Shown here one piece after another: positions 3,358 to 37,617 of a stretch of 37,617 nt of DNA. The notes under the pieces were generated by a model. That model was not told where the DNA came from and made no database searches. It was given only the letters and a program-made list of their open reading frames with translations. Positions within the stretch are counted from its first letter, which is position 1. Each line of letters starts with the position of its first letter. Position numbers and translations under genes: made by a program. Source of the DNA: a virus; IMG/VR virus record IMGVR_UViG_3300042542_001723, positions 1 through 37,617 of that record; one strand, given 5' to 3'.

Positions 3358-4233
3358 TCAGTATTGAGGGTGAGGACCCAAAACCCTTGGGGGGCAAGGG
3401 GTTTCGAGGATTGATAGCTGTTCGATTCCGGGCTGGGAACTACGAAGAATGTTCTGCAGCTTTGTCCAACGTGTATCACTAAAAAAGGACTGCGATCGAT
3501 ACCACTGCTCAGCATTGGCTCGACCTTTACTAAAGTTGCAGCGCTGGCACGCGGGCACAATGTTGCCTAGGTGATGCTCACCGCCCTTGCTGATGGGGAT
3601 CACGTGCTCCACCTGCAGATCGCCATTAGCACCGCAGTAAGCGCACTCATGACCGAACTGCACCCACCTGCGCCATAGCTGGTCACGGCTGAGCATCAAG
3701 GCGGTGCTGCCCCTCTCTTGCGCCTTGCGCCGTTTGGACTTGCTGCGATGGTAAAGCCTGTGGCTCTCATCGGTCATATAGCGCCAACGTTCGTTGCGTA
3801 GGTTTTGCTGGCGTTTGTGCTCAACACGATCGCTTGGGTTTTGACGCCAATGCTCACGCTGTTGGTCGTAGACCAGGCGAGCCACTGATGGCAAGTGTCC
3901 TGCGCGTTTGATCGCCTTACGCAATGCAATCGTGTCTTTATCAGACGCAGGGGTGTAAGGCAAACCATATTTAGATCGCGATGGTCTGCCTTCGACTTTG
4001 CGCTTTGCGGCTACATACTCAGCCTGCTTGCGTCTGAATGCAGGGTCTTGCCTTAATCGCTTTTGCTTGTCAAGCGAATCAATTCGCTCACACCAAGGAC
4101 AAACCTTTCGCCTGATGTAACGAAGAGTCAAGCCATCAGCGTGGATGTGATTGCGCTTGCATGGTTTGCCGAGCCTGAACATTTCAGGATCGAATGGCTC
4201 ACCAGGGGCTGGCAACTCATATGCTTTTGGCAT
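3358..4233 (-). CDS. HNH endonuclease next to the terminase genes
   Basis: The 291-residue protein carries a C-terminal HNH domain: CAYCG, then LQVEHVIPISKGGEHHLGN with the catalytic His, then a second Cys pair in CQRCNFSKG. The Cys pairs bind structural zinc and the His-Asn-His residues bind the catalytic metal. An N-terminal segment has a further Cys set (GKPCKRNHIHADG and KVCPWCER), which may be a second zinc finger for DNA binding, followed by a long basic region. HNH proteins beside terminase genes assist cos cleavage in HK97-type phages, and the location directly upstream of terS fits this. A homing endonuclease is the alternative, because a second HNH gene lies at 14378-14722. The C-terminus after the domain (SILETPCPPRVLGPHPQY) looks unstructured. 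Confidence 0.85.
   Translation of the reverse strand: MPKAYELPAPGEPFDPEMFRLGKPCKRNHIHADGLTLRYIRRKVCPWCERIDSLDKQKRLRQDPAFRRKQAEYVAAKRKVEGRPSRSKYGLPYTPASDKDTIALRKAIKRAGHLPSVARLVYDQQREHWRQNPSDRVEHKRQQNLRNERWRYMTDESHRLYHRSKSKRRKAQERGSTALMLSRDQLWRRWVQFGHECAYCGANGDLQVEHVIPISKGGEHHLGNIVPACQRCNFSKGRANAEQWYRSQSFFSDTRWTKLQNILRSSQPGIEQLSILETPCPPRVLGPHPQY
3381..3404 (-). terminator. Inverted repeat at end of HNH gene, weak terminator candidate
   Basis: AAACCCTTG (3381-3389) and CAAGGGGTTT (3395-3404) form a stem with one bulged G and a 5-base loop inside the last codons of the HNH gene. In minus-strand RNA the stem ends in a UUUU run. It could reduce read-through into terS, or belong to the structured region next to it. 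The T-run is short, so confidence is low. Confidence 0.3.
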
Positions 4234-8987: not shown

Positions 8988-9821
8988 ATGGAGAACGCCG
9001 ACTATCACGCGCACCCTGCGATCTCAAAGTCGCATCTGGATCTCATTGCGCGATCACCCTTGCACTACTGGGCGCGCTACATCGACCCGAAGCGCGTCAT
9101 CCCTGAGCCGACGCCAGCGATGCGCATCGGCAGCGCAGTCCACACCCATGTGCTCGAGCTGCACAAATGGGATGCCGAATACACCGTGGCACCCGATGGC
9201 CTTGATCGCCGCACCAAGGCCGGCAAGGAAGCATGGGCAGCGTTCGAGGCTGAGGCCAACGGCCGCACCGTGCTGAGCCGAGAGGATGCCGATCTGGTCA
9301 TGCACATGGGCAGAGCAGTGCTCGGCCATCCGGCTGCTGCATTGCTGCTCGGCATGGCAGGCGAGGCTGAGACCACGCACATGTGGACAGAGCCGACCAC
9401 TGGCCTGCAATGCAAGTGCCGGCCGGACTGGATCACCGAGGATGGCGGCATCGTGGTGGATCTCAAGACCACGGAGGACGCCAGTCCGCGGGAGTTCCGC
9501 CGCAGCATCGCGAAGTGGCGGTATCACGTCCAAGCCGGCTGGTATATGGCGGGCATCGAGGCTGCCTACGGCAAGCGGCCAAGCGGATTCATTTTCATCG
9601 CAGTAGAGAAGAAGCCGCCGTTTGCGGTTGGTGTCTATGCCGCTGATGAGCAGATGATCGAGCGCGGCTATCAGACCGCCATGCGCGATCTGCAGACACT
9701 GGCGGAGTGCAAATCCAATGGCCGCTGGCCTGCATACAGCGATCGGATCGAACCGATCAGCCTGCCGGCATGGATGACTGGCGAGGCCAACACACAGACC
9801 ACCGAGATCGAGATGTATTGA
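8988..9821 (+). CDS. RecE-like PD-(D/E)XK exonuclease
   Basis: The 277-residue protein resembles the exodeoxyribonuclease VIII / DUF3799 group that resects double-stranded ends to give single strands for annealing. It opens with a YHAHPAISKSHLDLI helix typical of the group; GSAVHTHVLE carries a conserved His near 52; the catalytic set is Glu128 (EAETT), Asp147 in KCRPDW, and Asp158/Lys160 in VVDLKTT, followed by the helix WRYHVQAGWYMAGIEAAYGK. It is the first gene of the plus-strand recombination unit and overlaps the annealing protein start (TGATG), the usual pairing of a two-component recombinase. Confidence 0.9.
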   Translation: MENADYHAHPAISKSHLDLIARSPLHYWARYIDPKRVIPEPTPAMRIGSAVHTHVLELHKWDAEYTVAPDGLDRRTKAGKEAWAAFEAEANGRTVLSREDADLVMHMGRAVLGHPAAALLLGMAGEAETTHMWTEPTTGLQCKCRPDWITEDGGIVVDLKTTEDASPREFRRSIAKWRYHVQAGWYMAGIEAAYGKRPSGFIFIAVEKKPPFAVGVYAADEQMIERGYQTAMRDLQTLAECKSNGRWPAYSDRIEPISLPAWMTGEANTQTTEIEMY

Positions 9822-10471
9822 TGGAATCCACAGCACTCACCACCACCCAGCCGACTGGCTCCGTTTTTTCGGGGATTCAGCAGTTCGAGGACGCCCAGCG
9901 GATTGCAAAGGCTTTGGCCAGCAGCACGCTGATCCCACCGCAGTTTCAAGGCCAACAGGGGTTCGCCAACTGCCTGGTCGCGCTTGAGATCGCCAATCGG
10001 ATGGGCATCTCGCCCTTTCTGGCGATGCAGCACCTACATGTGATCCACGGTCGGCCATCGTGGAGCAGCAGCTTCATCATTGCGATGGTGAACGGCTGCG
10101 GCCGATTCAGTCCGCTGCGGTTCGAACTGAGCGGCAGCGGCGACAGCTTGGCCTGCTACGCGGTCGCCAAGGATCTCGCCAGCGGGCAGGAGCTGAAGGG
10201 ACCGACCATCACGATGGCGATGGCGAAGAAGGAGCAATGGGCAACCAAAGCGGGCAGCAAGTGGCAAACGATGCCGGAGCTGATGATCCGCTATCGCGCC
10301 GCAGCGTTCTGGGGTCGTCTTTATGCCAGCGATCTGCTGCTGGGGATGCAGAGCCAGGAGGAGGTGGTTGACATCGAGCCGGTGACCGTGAGCGATCAGG
10401 TCGCTGATCTGAACGCCGCCATCCCTGAGCCGGCACCTACACCGGAGCCTGAGAGCGATGAACTCTTCTGA
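9821..10471 (+). CDS. RecT-family single-strand annealing protein
   Basis: Starting at the ATG that overlaps the exonuclease stop gives 216 residues; an open frame extends upstream to 9707 but is not needed. The core motifs (ALEIANRMGISPFLAMQHLHV, WSSSFIIAMVNGCGRF and TMPELMIRYRAAAFWGRLYA) match RecT-like proteins of phages, which coat single strands produced by the exonuclease and promote annealing. The C-terminus ends in acidic residues and Phe (PEPESDELF), resembling the acidic tip of single-strand binding proteins. The next gene starts 14 bases before the stop. Confidence 0.87.
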   Translation: MESTALTTTQPTGSVFSGIQQFEDAQRIAKALASSTLIPPQFQGQQGFANCLVALEIANRMGISPFLAMQHLHVIHGRPSWSSSFIIAMVNGCGRFSPLRFELSGSGDSLACYAVAKDLASGQELKGPTITMAMAKKEQWATKAGSKWQTMPELMIRYRAAAFWGRLYASDLLLGMQSQEEVVDIEPVTVSDQVADLNAAIPEPAPTPEPESDELF

Positions 10472-10649
10472 ATACCTGACTGCCACCCAGCTTGCGCAGC
10501 GATGGGGGTTGCACCCCGACACGTTGATGCGCTGGCGCAAGGCCAACAAGGGTCCGGCGTATTTCCGCACGCCAGGCTTCGTGCTCTACCCATTGGCCGG
10601 GGTGGAGCAATACGAACAGGCCAACACCACTACCAACGAGCAACCATGA
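10458..10649 (+). CDS. Small helix-turn-helix (excisionase/MerR-like) protein
   Basis: The 63-residue protein reads YLTATQLAQRWGLHPDTLMRW, a helix-turn-helix of the HTH_17/excisionase type, followed by a wing-like stretch ending in YPLAGVEQYEQ. Proteins of this kind bind specific DNA sites as regulators or as recombination directionality factors. No integrase is present, so a regulatory role in the early region is more likely than excision. It overlaps recT by 14 bases and the next gene by ATGA. Confidence 0.8.
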   Translation: MNSSEYLTATQLAQRWGLHPDTLMRWRKANKGPAYFRTPGFVLYPLAGVEQYEQANTTTNEQP

Positions 10650-10960
10650 GTTTCAAGCTGAACCTGAGCATCTTCAAGTCGACCAAGCCTGAAAGCAAGG
10701 TGGACTTCAGCGGGATGATGAACATCAAAGTGGAGGAGCTGGATGCGCTCTGCCGCTTTGTCATGAGCCAGACGCCCGACCAGTACGGCAGCGTCCAGGT
10801 GCCGATCAGCGGCTGGAAGAAGACCAGCCAGAAGGGACTGGCTTATGTGAGCGCCGTGGCGCAACCGCCCCGGGACTGGGTGGATCCCGGTGATGCTGCA
10901 CAGAAGCTCGCCGCGGCCACTGATGGCGTGGTCATCGACGTGAGCGACGACATGTTCTGA
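10646..10960 (+). CDS. SSB-like protein with acidic C-terminal tip
   Basis: ATG 10646 overlaps the preceding stop (ATGA) and gives 104 residues; the longer open frame to 10502 is a shadow of the HTH gene. The body alternates beta-like segments (VDFSGMMNIKVEELDALCRF, YGSVQVPISGWKKTSQKG, LAYVSAVAQPP), compatible with an OB-fold. It ends VIDVSDDMF, an acidic tail closed by Phe, like the DDDIPF tip through which SSB recruits partners. With exonuclease and annealing genes immediately upstream, a single-strand DNA-binding role is plausible. There is no decisive family signature. Confidence 0.5.
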   Translation: MSFKLNLSIFKSTKPESKVDFSGMMNIKVEELDALCRFVMSQTPDQYGSVQVPISGWKKTSQKGLAYVSAVAQPPRDWVDPGDAAQKLAAATDGVVIDVSDDMF

Positions 10961-10961
10961 G

Positions 10962-11159
10962 CTACATCAACTCCAGCTCGAGGCGGGCGATCTCATTGAC
11001 CGCCTGCTGCAGGAGTTGCTGCTGGTAGCAAGCCTGCTTTAGGAGTGCTGCCGCCATAACGCCCGCATCCGGACTTGAGAGAAGGGTGCGGGCTTGTTTT
11101 TCGATCTCGAACTGCTGTTCTGGCGAAAGCTCCACCAGCATCCACTCACCGAAGCGCAT
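10962..11159 (-). CDS. Small NblA-like protein, antisense within the early region
   Basis: ATG 11159 gives 65 residues; the open frame continues upstream to 11699 but only this part looks protein-like. The segment VELSPEQQFEIEKQARTL followed by a Leu/Gln-rich helix (LLKQACYQQQLLQQAV) has the length and N-terminal signature (E-L-S-x-E-Q-Q-F) of NblA, the adaptor that marks phycobilisomes for proteolysis in cyanobacteria and is carried by some freshwater cyanophages. The C-terminal half is less similar to NblA. It is the only minus-strand gene between 8988 and 14378, starts 27 bases from the divergent zinc-ribbon gene, and its stop is 1 base from the stop of the SSB-like gene. An unrelated coiled-coil protein is the alternative. 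Confidence 0.45.
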   Translation of the reverse strand: MRFGEWMLVELSPEQQFEIEKQARTLLSSPDAGVMAAALLKQACYQQQLLQQAVNEIARLELELM

Positions 11160-11186: not shown

Positions 11187-11429
11187 ATGATACCGATGCA
11201 ATGCCAGCGCTGCTCCAGCTCGATGGTCAGAGCAGTAGCCACGAACAACAAGGAGCCGGGCGTGACCGTGCGGAAGCGGCAGTGTGCCGATTGTGGGTTC
11301 GTGTGGTTCACGGTGGAGCTGCCCGTTAGCCCGGCGGTGGTCGGTTGGGGGCGGATCGATGCGAAGGGACAGAGCAAGCCGGTGCTGCGGGTGCCGGTGG
11401 AGATCGCGGTCGGCACCGAGGCCGTGTGA
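11187..11429 (+). CDS. Zinc-ribbon protein, NrdR-like N-terminal finger
   Basis: From ATG 11187 (MIPMQCQRCSSS) the protein has 80 residues; the frame is open back to 11094. Two Cys pairs (MQCQRC and RQCADCGF) separated by VRKRQ-type basic residues match the zinc ribbon at the N-terminus of NrdR, the repressor of ribonucleotide reductase genes, but the ATP-cone domain of NrdR is absent. It is therefore probably a small DNA-binding regulator. It is divergent from the minus-strand gene at 11159. Confidence 0.6.
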   Translation: MIPMQCQRCSSSMVRAVATNNKEPGVTVRKRQCADCGFVWFTVELPVSPAVVGWGRIDAKGQSKPVLRVPVEIAVGTEAV

Positions 11430-12987: not shown

Positions 12988-13196
12988 GAGCCGCGAACCG
13001 AGGCAGCTTCACCGCTGGCCATGTGCCTGCCACTGCTGTATTGCTGCCGCAGAACGCCATCGAGATCCGCCGTCGTCGCGCTGAAGGCTGGAAGATCAAG
13101 CAGTTGGCGCAGACCTACGGCGTCAGCGAGACCCACATCATCGACATCGTTTTCTACCGCAAATGGAAGAACGCAGACCAGCAGGCGACGCAGTGA
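12978..13196 (+). CDS. Small HTH-type DNA-binding protein (72 aa)
   Basis: ATG 12978 overlaps the preceding stop and fits the local coupling pattern better than the upstream ATG at 12951. After a flexible start, AIEIRRRRAEGWKIKQLAQ and TYGVSETHIIDIVFYRKW form a tri-helical helix-turn-helix of the type found in resolvases and transposase-like regulators. Such a small protein would be a local regulator. Its target is unknown. Confidence 0.65.
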   Translation: MAVRAANRGSFTAGHVPATAVLLPQNAIEIRRRRAEGWKIKQLAQTYGVSETHIIDIVFYRKWKNADQQATQ

Positions 13197-13423
13197 ATCA
13201 TCCCGCCCACTACCAAGCCGGCACCATCGAGGCCATCGACTTCATCGAATCGGTGATCTGTGATGCGCCGCACATGGTCCTGGCATACCTGCAGGGGCAG
13301 GCACTCAAGTACATGATCCGCATGTGGCTCAAGGGCAACGCGCTCGAGGATGCCCGCAAAGCGGAGTGGTATCTGAATCGACTCATTGCCAAGATGGAGT
13401 CATGCTCGAACATCTCCGCCTGA
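13163..13423 (+). CDS. DUF3310 (SaV-like) protein
   Basis: The protein carries NHPAHYQAGTIEAIDFIESV, the signature opening of the DUF3310 family of short phage proteins, then LQGQALKYMIRMWLKGN and EDARKAEWYLNRLI. The family is widespread in phages and implicated in nucleotide metabolism by gene context, but no activity is established. A GTG at 13193 overlapping the upstream stop (GTGA) is an alternative start that keeps the whole domain. The next gene starts 22 bases before this stop. Confidence 0.85.
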   Translation: MEERRPAGDAVNHPAHYQAGTIEAIDFIESVICDAPHMVLAYLQGQALKYMIRMWLKGNALEDARKAEWYLNRLIAKMESCSNISA

Positions 13424-14342: not shown

Positions 14343-14422
14343 AGACCCCGCTGGTGGTCGTGTTTGGGATGACCTGGCTAGGCGGCATGTTGCTCGCCAC
14401 CATCTGGCTGACGATGTTCTGA
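14339..14422 (+). CDS. 27-residue membrane peptide
   Basis: MKTPLVVVFGMTWLGGMLLA with a hydrophobic end (TIWLTMF) is nearly all one membrane helix. It is coupled to the preceding gene by ATGA. Its 3' part overlaps, antisense, the end of the HNH gene at 14378, so it could be fortuitous. Confidence 0.35.
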   Translation: MKTPLVVVFGMTWLGGMLLATIWLTMF

Positions 14423-14722
14423 GTGGCTGGTGATCCACTGCACGATCGCCCATTCACCAAGCGCCGACCAGAACGGTTGAGCGCGATACCAGTCGACCCA
14501 TGGCTTGTGGCCTTTCTGGCTGTTGCACATCAGGCAGCAGGAGACCAGGTTCTCGCGGACCGTCAGGCCACCGTGGACCTTAGGAACGACGTGATCGAGG
14601 GTGGGACTGCGGCCGAGGGGATCGTTGCAATAGGCGCACCTATATCCCCAGCGGAGGTGGATCTGATCACGCGCCGATCGACGGGTGACCAGCCGGGTTT
14701 CGTCAATGTGGTGCTGATCCAC
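14378..14722 (-). CDS. Small HNH endonuclease
   Basis: The 114-residue protein has the HNH core CAYCNDPLGRSPTLDHVVPK, then GGLTVRENLVSCCLMCNSQK with catalytic His and paired Cys for zinc, and a short C-terminal helix KPWVDWYRAQPFW. It starts at GTG 14722 and overlaps the upstream minus gene by 20 bases. As a stand-alone HNH gene oriented against its neighbours it could be a homing-type insertion; it shares the K-G-x-x-x-x-x-W-Y-R-x-Q-x-F layout after the HNH core with the larger HNH at 3358-4233 (GRANAEQWYRSQSFF), so the two may be paralogous. Confidence 0.85.
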   Translation of the reverse strand: MDQHHIDETRLVTRRSARDQIHLRWGYRCAYCNDPLGRSPTLDHVVPKVHGGLTVRENLVSCCLMCNSQKGHKPWVDWYRAQPFWSALGEWAIVQWITSHSEHRQPDGGEQHAA

Positions 14723-33517: not shown

Positions 33518-36145
33518 TCAGAGGGTGTCGTTGCCGCGGCTGAAGGACTCAGGATGGCGGATTGCGATGTCGCAGTCCTGCATCGCCACAACGCGGACGG
33601 TGCCGCTGGTGCTGTGGGTGTAGGGGTCCACCATCAGGTCGAGGCCAGAGAAGTAGCCGATGATCAGGTCGGCGAAGTTGCCGAACCACAGATCGCCAGA
33701 AGCCACTTGGTTGGACAGCACACCGCGGTAGCCGTTCACCTCGCCGTTTTCCATGATGAAGATGCCGGAGCCGGCGTCCTTCTTCGTGGTCTTGAGGTTG
33801 CCGCGCATAGCAGCGTTCATCAGGTACACAGGCGTACCGAGCAGAGCGTTGGCAGTAGCCACGTCGCTCTCCAGTGCCACCACCTCAGCGAAGGTAGGAG
33901 CAGCAGCAGCGAAGTCCTCGGTGCCGATGCCGGTGGTGTTCTTCAGACCCAGGGGCTCGCTGTTGGAGCCGGTGCCATACAGGCCGGCGGCGTCGATCTT
34001 GAGAGCGATCACGCTGGCCAGGTCGCTGCGCACCATGTTCTCCACGTCGATGGAGGACTGGATCATCAGGCGCCTGCTGAAGTCTGTGTAGGCCGCCACG
34101 GTACGGGGCACCAGACTCACCTGGTCGACGGTCTGCTGGGACTCGGTGGGGGAGCCGGACTCGGCCACCCAGTAAGCGGTAGCAGCGCCGGACTGGCGGG
34201 GGATAGCCACGTTGCCGGTCAGGCCGGTCAGCACGGTGGCGCCAGCTTGATCCAGGGCGGAAGCGTTACGGAGCAGGTCGATGAACGAACCGGCATCCAG
34301 ATCGGTAGCAACCAGGTTGCCGCCGGCGGAAGCGGTGCCGACGTTCAGGTCACGGCGCAGCACATCCTGGGGGATGGTGATGCCACGGGACTGACGGCCG
34401 AGTTTGGCAGCAGCAGCTTCGGAGGCCTCGATCTCGAACGCAGCAGCCTCACGGGCAGAGCGGTCGGTCGGGTTGGAAAGATAGTTGATGGCACGCAGGA
34501 AGGAGAAGCTGCGGCTCTCCTTCTCGCTGAGGCCAATGTCGGCGGCCTGCATGGTCACGGTCTCCTGGGGAATGTTGAGCTTGTCGAGGACAGCAGCACG
34601 AGCCTCATCGATTGAACGACCAGACTCGACCATTTGCCGGCCAAGATCCTCCATGCGGTGCTTGGAGCACAGGGAGGTGATATCTGAGATGCGGGCGCGC
34701 TCAGCCTCGGCGGCTTCAGCACGCACCACGGCCAGATCGGGGGTGGTGTTTTCCATTGAAGGAATGGGATCGGGTGTTGGTGCTGCCGAAGCAGCAGTGT
34801 CATCCTGCAGAGATCGACCAATCCCGACGCCGGGGTCAGCCGGCACCGAGACGACGCTGATCTCGTAAGGAGACCAAGCAGTAGCAACAAAGTCGCCACT
34901 GCCACGCTCCTCCATTTTGTCGATGGAGTAGCCGAAGGAGACATTCCGAAGAACGCCATCCTTCACATCACTCAGGATCTCCTGAGCGAATGGGTTGCGG
35001 CTAAACCGCACACGGGCATAGCCACGACGCTTTGACCCGTCGATGTATGCCCGCTCAACCACACCGATCACTTTGTCAGGGTTGTGGTTGAACAGCAGCG
35101 GCGCACCATCGTTCAAGCGGCTCAGATCAGCAGCCTTGCCTTCATGGCTCAGGATCTCATTGCCGAAGTATCGAGCGACCGGATACTCAGAGCTAAAGGG
35201 GAACTCGTAGGTCCGATCCTCCACCTCATCGAACGCAGTCATCTCGCTGCGCTGATACTTGCCGGTCAGGCTGCGCAGTGCCGCGATCTTGGTGAGCGTC
35301 GAGAACTTATGGCCGACCAGCGTCTCGGTCGCCTCCCAGCCTTCGTCGCCTTCGCGGTAGATGCGAATAAGAGCAGCAGGATCCTCAGCGCTGGCGTCGA
35401 TGCTGAACTCGGTGTCGGGTACGCCCAGCGTGCCCTCACGCATCACATGCTCGATCCGACCGCGCGCAGTGCCACCGCTCGAATCCCACTGCACAAAGTC
35501 GCCTTCGCTCAGTTCGCCCGGTGCAGCACGATCGGCTTCACCATCGCCCGTAGCTTCCTCGAACATGATCGGATCGAAGTCATGCTCGGCCAGCCAAGCA
35601 CGCGCCTCGGCTGGGGTGTACTGCGAGCTACGGAATCGGATGGCTTGAATTTCGCTCACGCCTTCCTTGATCCCGTAGATGAAGTCAATGCCTGAGCCGC
35701 CCGCATCGTTCTCTCGACGTAACGAATCATATTGCTCGGGATCGGTCAGCCGAGCAGCATGTTCATTCGGATAGGGGCGCTCTAAGTCCACGGCGCTTCT
35801 TTCTTGTAATGCCTTGATTCTATCGGCCTTGGATGTAGCCCATTCCTGGCCAGCATCTCCGCCCCATGCCGCCCATGCCACACGTCCAGGCGATGGATAG
35901 CCATCTTCGCCAGGACTGAATCCTTCGCCCTGCTTGTCCACCTCATGCCGGGCGAACCATGCCGCCATCGTGATCACCGTGTCGGCGCTCAACTCATCAC
36001 CGCCGAGGATCTGCCCAGCTCGCCTAGCCGCCACCTCGGTGCCGCCATCGCGCCCCTCAGCCTTCCAATCCCGATAGCGCTGCGCCTCCTCCTTCATGCC
36101 CTCCGTGGGCATCAGGTCGATCTCCTGCCCCTCGATCGTTGCCAT
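33518..36145 (-). CDS. Prohead protease - major capsid protein fusion with N-terminal accessory domains
   Basis: ATG 36145 overlaps the portal stop (TGATG); the protein is 875 residues. In order: an accessory domain at 25-105 (TEVAARRAGQILGGDEL, MAAWFARHEVDKQGEGFSPG, GRVAWAAWGGDAGQ); a second at about 150-200 (FIYGIKEGVSEIQAIRFRSS); a Tudor-like module at 215-285 (GDFVQWDSSGGTARGRIEHV); an HK97-type serine protease at 305-440 with His354 (LLFNHNPDKVIG), Ser403 (NVSFGYSI) and SVVSVPAD; a Glu/Ala-rich delta/scaffold region at 465-590; and an HK97-fold capsid protein to the end (SFIDLLRNASALDQAG, YWVAESGSPTESQQTVDQVS). The protease probably cleaves itself and the delta domain. An internal ATG at 34756 (codon 464) could make free capsid precursor of 412 residues. 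Confidence 0.88.
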   Translation of the reverse strand: MATIEGQEIDLMPTEGMKEEAQRYRDWKAEGRDGGTEVAARRAGQILGGDELSADTVITMAAWFARHEVDKQGEGFSPGEDGYPSPGRVAWAAWGGDAGQEWATSKADRIKALQERSAVDLERPYPNEHAARLTDPEQYDSLRRENDAGGSGIDFIYGIKEGVSEIQAIRFRSSQYTPAEARAWLAEHDFDPIMFEEATGDGEADRAAPGELSEGDFVQWDSSGGTARGRIEHVMREGTLGVPDTEFSIDASAEDPAALIRIYREGDEGWEATETLVGHKFSTLTKIAALRSLTGKYQRSEMTAFDEVEDRTYEFPFSSEYPVARYFGNEILSHEGKAADLSRLNDGAPLLFNHNPDKVIGVVERAYIDGSKRRGYARVRFSRNPFAQEILSDVKDGVLRNVSFGYSIDKMEERGSGDFVATAWSPYEISVVSVPADPGVGIGRSLQDDTAASAAPTPDPIPSMENTTPDLAVVRAEAAEAERARISDITSLCSKHRMEDLGRQMVESGRSIDEARAAVLDKLNIPQETVTMQAADIGLSEKESRSFSFLRAINYLSNPTDRSAREAAAFEIEASEAAAAKLGRQSRGITIPQDVLRRDLNVGTASAGGNLVATDLDAGSFIDLLRNASALDQAGATVLTGLTGNVAIPRQSGAATAYWVAESGSPTESQQTVDQVSLVPRTVAAYTDFSRRLMIQSSIDVENMVRSDLASVIALKIDAAGLYGTGSNSEPLGLKNTTGIGTEDFAAAAPTFAEVVALESDVATANALLGTPVYLMNAAMRGNLKTTKKDAGSGIFIMENGEVNGYRGVLSNQVASGDLWFGNFADLIIGYFSGLDLMVDPYTHSTSGTVRVVAMQDCDIAIRHPESFSRGNDTL

Positions 36146-37617
36146 CAATCTCCCTGCAACTGCTCGCTCAGATCTTCAGTCCCTTCTTCCTCGGGATAGT
36201 CCTCCTCCTCCTCGATCACCGGCTCGGTCTCCTCGAACGGTGCCTCGGTGCCCATCGGCCGTGAAGCCTGCACCGCACCACCCTCAGTCACCTCGCTCGG
36301 ATCGGTGTCCGTGATGATGTTGAACTCATCGAGCATCGCCAGCTCGCTCTGGCGGGTGAGCATCACATCATCCAGGTCGCCACCCTGTTCTGCGATGACC
36401 TGCGTCAGAGTCTTGAAGCCGCATCGCACCGCGGTCTTGTACGCATCCACTTCCTTCTGCGGATCAACCCACTCCCAGCTCCGGGGGATCCACTTGCTGG
36501 CGCGATAACGATCAGGGTTGGTCTCATATCCAGGCAGGTTCACAGCACCGCTCAGCACCGCCATCTCCAGCCATGCGTTGAAAACAGGCTGGTGGAAGTT
36601 CTCGATCATGTACCGCTGCAGCACGCGGTACGCATCACGCTCCTCGAGCAGGCTCAGCCGGCTGCTGCTGTAGTTGCTCTCGGAGAAGTTCTTGCTGATG
36701 CTCTCAAACGAAACGCCCAGGCCAGCAGCCACAGCACGCAGCATCGACCGGGTGAATGGCTCGAGCTGACCGTCCGGTGCGTTCATGTCCGGCACCGTCA
36801 CGCTCTGACCCGGATCGAGGTACTTGAACACTCCCGGCTGGAACTCGCTAACGCGCTCGCCTTCATACATCTCATCCGCCGTCAGTTCACCCTCGGGACT
36901 AGTGATAAATCCCATCAGCGCACTGCTAGCCCGTGCCCGCACCAGCTCGGCCTCCTCATAACCCTGCAGCATGTGCAGCCGCATCAGCGCCGATGCGAAC
37001 CACGTCACGCCCCTGGTCTGCCCAGGTCGTTCCGGAATAAACAGATGGATCACCTCATCAGCAGGTACCCGGATCCGGCGGCCAGTCGTGCGCACGTTGC
37101 CGGCGTAGGTATCGCCCGGATGGTTCGCATAGAAGTGATACGCCTGCGGCCGCAGATACTGATCCACCTCGATGCCCATCCGCACCGTGTTGCCATCCTT
37201 GGCCTGCGGCACGTCATCATCGATCAGGTAGTCAGCCTCCAGTAGTTGCAGCGCGAACGGCACACGGCTATCGCCGAACGGCCGGCGGATCATCCTGATG
37301 AAGATCTCGCCGCTCTCCGCCAAGCTGCGCACCGCCAGCCGCTCGATATCGTGGAAGCCGAGCAGGCCGCTCACGTCGCAGCGGTATTTGTTCATCCATT
37401 TCTCGAACGCCTCATGGATTTGGGCGTTCATCGCCTCATCCAACTTGCCCCCGCGCAGCATCCGCACCTGGCTCTGATGCCGGATGCCGTGGCCGATCAC
37501 GTTGTTCTGGATAGCGCGCAGCGCCTGCTTCGCATAGTCCGAATCACGGCACAACTGCCGCGCCCGGTTGCGCAATGCCTTGAAGCTCGACTTGATCTCG
37601 CTATCGGCGCTGGTGCC
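36145..37617 (-). CDS. Portal protein, C-terminal part (lambda gpB family)
   Basis: This carries most of the 528-residue portal. It contains CDVSGLLGFHDIERLAVRSL, GEIFIRMIRR, VIHLFIPERPGQTRGVTWFA and FSESNYSSSRLSLLEERDAY, all lambda-type portal signatures. The C-terminus has about 40 residues very rich in Glu (EEEEDYPEEEGTEDLSEQLQ), a tail seen in several portals, perhaps repelling DNA or binding the scaffold. The last 127 bases duplicate the left end of the window; the true start is the ATG at 241. The stop overlaps the protease-capsid start by 1 base. Confidence 0.93.
   Translation of the reverse strand, partial: GTSADSEIKSSFKALRNRARQLCRDSDYAKQALRAIQNNVIGHGIRHQSQVRMLRGGKLDEAMNAQIHEAFEKWMNKYRCDVSGLLGFHDIERLAVRSLAESGEIFIRMIRRPFGDSRVPFALQLLEADYLIDDDVPQAKDGNTVRMGIEVDQYLRPQAYHFYANHPGDTYAGNVRTTGRRIRVPADEVIHLFIPERPGQTRGVTWFASALMRLHMLQGYEEAELVRARASSALMGFITSPEGELTADEMYEGERVSEFQPGVFKYLDPGQSVTVPDMNAPDGQLEPFTRSMLRAVAAGLGVSFESISKNFSESNYSSSRLSLLEERDAYRVLQRYMIENFHQPVFNAWLEMAVLSGAVNLPGYETNPDRYRASKWIPRSWEWVDPQKEVDAYKTAVRCGFKTLTQVIAEQGGDLDDVMLTRQSELAMLDEFNIITDTDPSEVTEGGAVQASRPMGTEAPFEETEPVIEEEEDYPEEEGTEDLSEQLQGD
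37491..37617. repeat. Right copy of 127-bp terminal direct repeat
   Basis: Identical to bases 1-127; it should be removed to obtain the circular map. See the left copy for interpretation. Confidence 0.93.

Follow-up and report, generated by a model that had tools for sequence, protein, structure and literature searches.

Genomic context of the nblA-like gene

The window, i.e. the whole stretch of 37,617 nucleotides analyzed here, is an IMG/VR virus record with a GC content of 60%. Its nearest named phages are S-CBS3, S-CBS1 and S-LBS1, and it is a Synechococcus siphophage related to these three, with the host assigned from the relatives. An nblA-like gene is located at 10962..11159 on the minus strand, with its ATG at 11159, and encodes a protein of 65 aa. 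Upstream on the plus strand lies an early recombination module that includes an exonuclease VIII (8988..9821; phrog_412, E 2e-101), a RecT-like annealing protein (9842..10471; phrog_561, E 1e-73) and an excisionase-like HTH gene assigned by a protein-family match (10458-10649). No integrase was found among the window proteins scanned. The convergent neighbor (10646..10960, plus strand) encodes a protein of 104 aa, which the initial annotation labeled ‘SSB-like’; it has no PHROG match, leaving this label without PHROG support. The 1-base convergent spacing described there is correct, as the plus-strand gene ends at 10960 and the stop codon of the nblA-like gene begins at 10962. On the other side, 27 bp separate the ATG of the nblA-like gene from the start of a divergent plus-strand gene (11187..11429), which encodes an 80-aa protein without PHROG match whose sequence contains CxxC pairs (zinc-ribbon-like).

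Further along the plus strand, an 86-aa protein (13163-13423) has, by family match, a C-terminal domain known from several phage nucleotide-kinase families. Two HNH endonuclease genes are located on the minus strand (3358-4233 and 14378-14722), as is a gene for an 876-aa protease-capsid fusion (33518-36148), in which the prohead S78 protease and major capsid domains are combined in one protein. Terminase, portal, primase and endolysin genes are also found around the early region. Among the mapped genes, the nblA-like gene is indeed alone on the minus strand in the interval from the exonuclease (8988) up to the HNH endonuclease (14378). A consensus promoter or terminator was not found between 10850 and 11600, and the independent control that had been proposed for the gene is unproven. 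The window (1-37617) yielded no tRNA genes and no Rfam families above threshold.

Sequence features and conservation of the gene

The product of 10962-11159 (minus strand, 65 codons) is MRFGEWMLVELSPEQQFEIEKQARTLLSSPDAGVMAAALLKQACYQQQLLQQAVNEIARLELELM. Three elements stand out in its N-terminal half. Residues 1-8 (11136..11159, minus strand) form an arm with the pattern M-x-[FW]-x-x-W-M-x, which is phage-specific and was defined on an alignment of 32 diverse phage members of the family, in all of which M1, W6 and M7 are invariant. Residues 10-17 (11109..11132, minus strand) carry the NblA signature ELSPEQQF, confirming the motif reported near the start of the 65-residue protein; it aligns with ELSLEQQFSI in canonical NblA and with LSxEQxFxxE in picocyanobacterial NblA-like proteins. 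Within it, LSPEQQF (residues 11-17) fits the canonical pattern L-[ST]-x-E-Q-[QE]-F, and the motif is degenerate in sister clades of the phage family. The window has 536 open frames that are 40 aa or longer; a search of these for [LIV][ST]xE[QE][QEK][FL] returned one occurrence, where residue shuffles lead one to expect 0.02. The third element, E20-x3-R24-x6-D31 (11067..11102, minus strand), is seen in the alignments to be common to picocyanobacterial NblA-like proteins; in the phage set E20 is invariant, and R24 and D31 are conserved in at least 90%.

A scan of viral contigs identified relatives of the gene on 232 contigs. The best 80 of these 232 are all full length, with 86-100% identity. 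A further scan with an intermediate member of the family found 110 related contigs, of which those kept are 47-75% identical to that member. Hundreds of related virus fragments, from both fresh and salt waters, carry the gene, unannotated there. dN/dS ranges from 0.03 to 0.17 in 11 pairwise comparisons, with one exception given as zero, in which synonymous sites are saturated. M1 is common to the relatives, whereas the codons 5' of it diverge, which supports the ATG at 11159 as the start codon.

The gene order around these relatives is conserved as well. Nearly all window-type loci listed retain the divergent neighbor with CxxC pairs, and the homolog of the 104-aa neighbor, where detectable, is on the opposite strand in 71/71 loci and within 150 bp in 69/71. 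Where a sigma-factor gene was detected nearby, it is always on the strand opposite to the nblA-like gene and lies within 150 bp in 13/18 cases; these 13 loci represent the S-CBS1-type phages, in which the two genes are arranged tail to tail. One might still read 10962-11159 as an open frame that is no gene, pointing to its solitary position on the minus strand within a plus-strand block and to the lack of a consensus promoter. This reading has practically no chance of being right and is already refuted by the conservation (full-length frames in all of the best 80 contigs, low dN/dS, and conserved start and synteny): 10962-11159 is a real, constrained gene.

Single-sequence and family searches

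Single-sequence hmmscan of the 65-aa protein against the Pfam, PHROG and NCBIfam families gave no match. The direct search with the NblA family PF04485, which the initial annotation had proposed as a check, was negative for the protein itself at E ≤ 10 (curated cut-off 25 bits) and for its relatives (0/32). As a control, PF04485 does detect the NblA proteins of PaV-LD and Ma-LMM01. It also misses the published NblA of S-SCSM1, which was predicted by its authors with HHpred, a distant-homology method (PMC9602691), and for this reason profile-profile comparison is the proper test. Taken alone, the hmmscan result would mislead into rejecting NblA. Searches with tblastn using the Anabaena and S. 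elongatus NblA proteins as queries returned no credible cyanophage NblA. A degenerate-pattern scan of genome contigs based on the phage family found no relative, whereas a whole-genome profile search succeeded.

Profile-profile comparison with NblA

For the comparison, 49 picocyanobacterial NblA-like proteins were collected without use of the phage family. The phage profile (A2/A3) matches the proteins of this set over their whole length with a probability of 96% (P 1e-9 to 2e-9), and 79 canonical NblAs with a probability of 80-87% (P about 1e-5). The picocyanobacterial set in turn matches canonical NblA at 96% (P 4e-9). In the controls, 13 neighboring-gene families reached at most 1.8% and 100 column shuffles at most 7.8%. 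When the alignment was begun after LSxEQQF, from residue 18, the match to canonical NblA fell to 1.2%, whereas the picocyanobacterial match stayed at 85% (P 6e-6). The link to canonical NblA is therefore largely one of motif, length and fold, and the link to the picocyanobacterial branch spans the whole core including the E-x3-R-x6-D spacing. Among 177,635 PDB sequences, NblA structures ranked first (1ojh, E 0.059) and second (3cs5, E 0.57) with the phage profile; these E-values are marginal and the ranking is unbiased.

Retrieval works in both directions. In 150 genomes from the picocyanobacterial order, the phage profile found small genes, with per-genome E-values as low as 2e-6; one of these genes (G309, contig 10) is also matched weakly by PF04485. 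A reverse profile was built from picocyanobacterial NblA-like proteins and the S-SCSM1 NblA, excluding the phage family of the window, and was run over whole phage records. In the window its sole match is the 10962-11159 gene (E 0.0015). It also matches S-CBS1 gp26 (E 2e-4), KBS-S-2A CPKG_00010 (E 9e-7) and one gene of S-TIM5 (E 5e-14), a phage previously reported to carry nblA (PMC9602691). The cyanopodoviruses Syn5, P60, S-CBP1 and S-CBP3 and the siphophage S-CBS3 gave no match with this profile, and the gene is therefore not universal in these phages. Across 13 picocyanobacterial and S-SCSM1 rows, E13, R17 and D24 are invariant, with the same spacing as E20, R24 and D31 in the phages.

Up to six NblA-like paralogs per genome were observed in picocyanobacteria (G182, G309, G306, G253 and others). 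They score below the Pfam NblA cut-off and hence escape standard annotation.

Predicted structure

AlphaFold2, run on the monomer with 32 phage sequences as input, gave a model with a mean pLDDT of 88. It predicts a short helix 1 (residues 13-27; 11079..11123, minus strand) and a long helix 2 (residues 33-64; 10968..11063, minus strand). A control model of a Nostoc/Anabaena-type NblA has helices at residues 9-22 and 27-55, and the predicted short-plus-long layout is the same in both. The length of 65 aa falls within the size range of NblA, about 55-65 aa. A Foldseek search of the phage model against the PDB returned no significant match. This result is uninformative, since the same search with the genuine Nostoc/Anabaena NblA model did not find 1OJH either.

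In Anabaena NblA, L51 and K53 are C-terminal phycobiliprotein-binding residues, and K53 is reported to be important for this binding. One alignment places L49 of the window protein opposite L51 and Q51 opposite K53, so that the K53 equivalent appears unconserved in this alignment; another alignment has a different register.

In summary of these comparisons, the product of 10962-11159 belongs, as judged from its sequence, to the NblA superfamily, in the branch closest to the picocyanobacterial NblA-like proteins. The relationship had initially been guessed from a single motif, and it is upheld by the controlled profile-profile comparison, the two-way retrieval, the PDB ranking and the predicted two-helix fold. 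Absence of profile similarity together with a host lacking phycobilisomes had been named as grounds for abandoning it; profile similarity is present, the nearest phages infect Synechococcus, and sampled relatives of this host possess phycobilisome linkers.

Comparison with known NblA proteins

The picocyanobacterial NblA-like proteins share with the phage protein the LSxEQxF motif, the E-x3-R-x6-D spacing and a core of about 50 residues. The phage proteins are extended at the N-terminus by the M-x-[FW]-x-x-W-M arm and are also longer in their C-terminal part. This arm does not occur in the picocyanobacterial or the canonical NblA alignments. In a tree the phage proteins form their own clan (support 0.99); as it is built from about 50 columns, this tree served solely to assess the monophyly of the phage group. 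Canonical NblA (PF04485; Anabaena 1OJH, S. elongatus 3CS5 and the freshwater phages PaV-LD and Ma-LMM01) has the size, the ELS-x-EQQF motif and the two-helix layout in common with the window protein, which in contrast lies below Pfam detection, is only weakly similar outside the motif and has the extra N-terminal arm. The NblA proteins of the myoviruses S-TIM5 and S-SCSM1 (Nadel et al. 2019, as summarized in PMC9602691) fall within the same superfamily and are matched by the same profile, S-SCSM1 being one of its rows, but here the virus is an S-CBS-like siphophage and the N-terminus differs.

Proposed function and alternatives

The cellular NblA homodimer binds phycobilisomes, via its C-terminus, and ClpC simultaneously and so directs the Clp protease to the antenna (PMC7760959), and loss of phycobilin has been linked to phage NblA expression (PMC9602691). 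We consider it probable that the gene encodes a phage proteolysis adaptor of the NblA superfamily that delivers the phycobilisome to the Clp protease during infection. By analogy with the NblA family, the two-helix protein would dimerize, the dimer would bind phycobiliproteins and host ClpC, and the ClpC-bound adaptor would hand the phycobilisome to the Clp protease early in infection; dimerization, both binding activities, degradation and early timing are each likely on this basis. Digestion of the phycobilisome would then supply amino acids for building virions, and the infected Synechococcus/Cyanobium cell would capture less light.

An adaptor of the same superfamily could instead act on a substrate other than, or beyond, the phycobilisome, in which case the phage-only arm would bring some other protein, of the host or of the phage, to Clp. 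The conservation of this arm in phages and its absence from cellular NblA would suit such a role, as would the tail-to-tail position next to a phage sigma factor in the 13 S-CBS1-type loci and the several paralogs per picocyanobacterial genome, which suggest diversified roles. Among the picocyanobacterial genomes sampled, NblA-like genes occur in 89/89 that have many phycobilisome linkers, in 7/17 that have one and in 1/44 that have none. The copies kept in the one-linker, Prochlorococcus-like genomes without full phycobilisomes again speak for another substrate, whereas the contrast between many-linker and linker-free genomes fits an antenna role, a co-occurrence that is confounded by Synechococcus versus Prochlorococcus ancestry and is thus supporting only. 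Known phage NblAs moreover act on phycobilisomes, according to PMC9602691, which cites earlier work. On balance we regard a different or additional substrate as unlikely. That the siphophage branch with its invariant W-M arm was repurposed outright, as a re-targeted adaptor sending another host or phage protein (e.g. of the transcription machinery) to Clp, is quite doubtful.

A very improbable explanation is that NblA is no relative at all: the gene would encode some other small helical protein of the phage, such as a modulator of host RNA polymerase or sigma factor, and convergence on a short LSxEQQF helix cap would account for the resemblance. The negative single-sequence profile searches, the motif-driven match to canonical NblA and the adjoining sigma-factor gene in sister phages are in line with convergence. 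Yet the picocyanobacterial match extends past the motif (from residue 18 onwards) with the same E-x3-R-x6-D spacing, the reverse search of the whole window matches this gene alone, and NblA occupies the first two places in the PDB ranking. An adaptor of the NblA superfamily acting on the phycobilisome remains our preferred interpretation.

A siphophage branch of NblA

Phage nblA genes are known from myoviruses, podoviruses and large freshwater phages. The genes described here constitute a new, unannotated siphophage branch of NblA with its own N-terminal W-M arm, which includes S-CBS1 gp26 and KBS-S-2A CPKG_00010, both annotated as ‘hypothetical protein’. For the S-CBS1 group, Nishimura et al. 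list no nblA (PMC5332604), and a literature search on S-CBS1 and nblA retrieved no paper assigning one. Priority is not certain, as a figure legend of PMC9602691 mentions cyanosiphovirus sequences.

Pfam, PHROGs and NCBIfam miss this branch, which is present in hundreds of siphophage-type contigs. If the proteins are active, nblA-bearing cyanophages are undercounted and the Synechococcus siphophages must be added to them. According to an estimate of Nadel et al. 2025 (cited in PMC12892361), viral NblA cuts global cyanobacterial light capture by up to 5%. Two of the phages that carry the nblA-like gene, S-CBS1 and KBS-S-2A, have been isolated, and its function is therefore directly testable.

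Both S-CBS1 gp26 and KBS-S-2A CPKG_00010 are full-length orthologs of the window protein (about 40-43% identity) and are likewise encoded on the strand opposite to the early operon, but they adjoin a sigma-factor gene instead of the recombination module and have a three-residue insert before helix 2. S-CBS1 gp26 (L082:9925-10170) and three other relatives (L357, L361 and L364) carry an extra basic, Trp-rich C-terminal tail that the window protein lacks, e.g. RRPWWHLW or RSWWQRLL, which is possibly membrane-associating.
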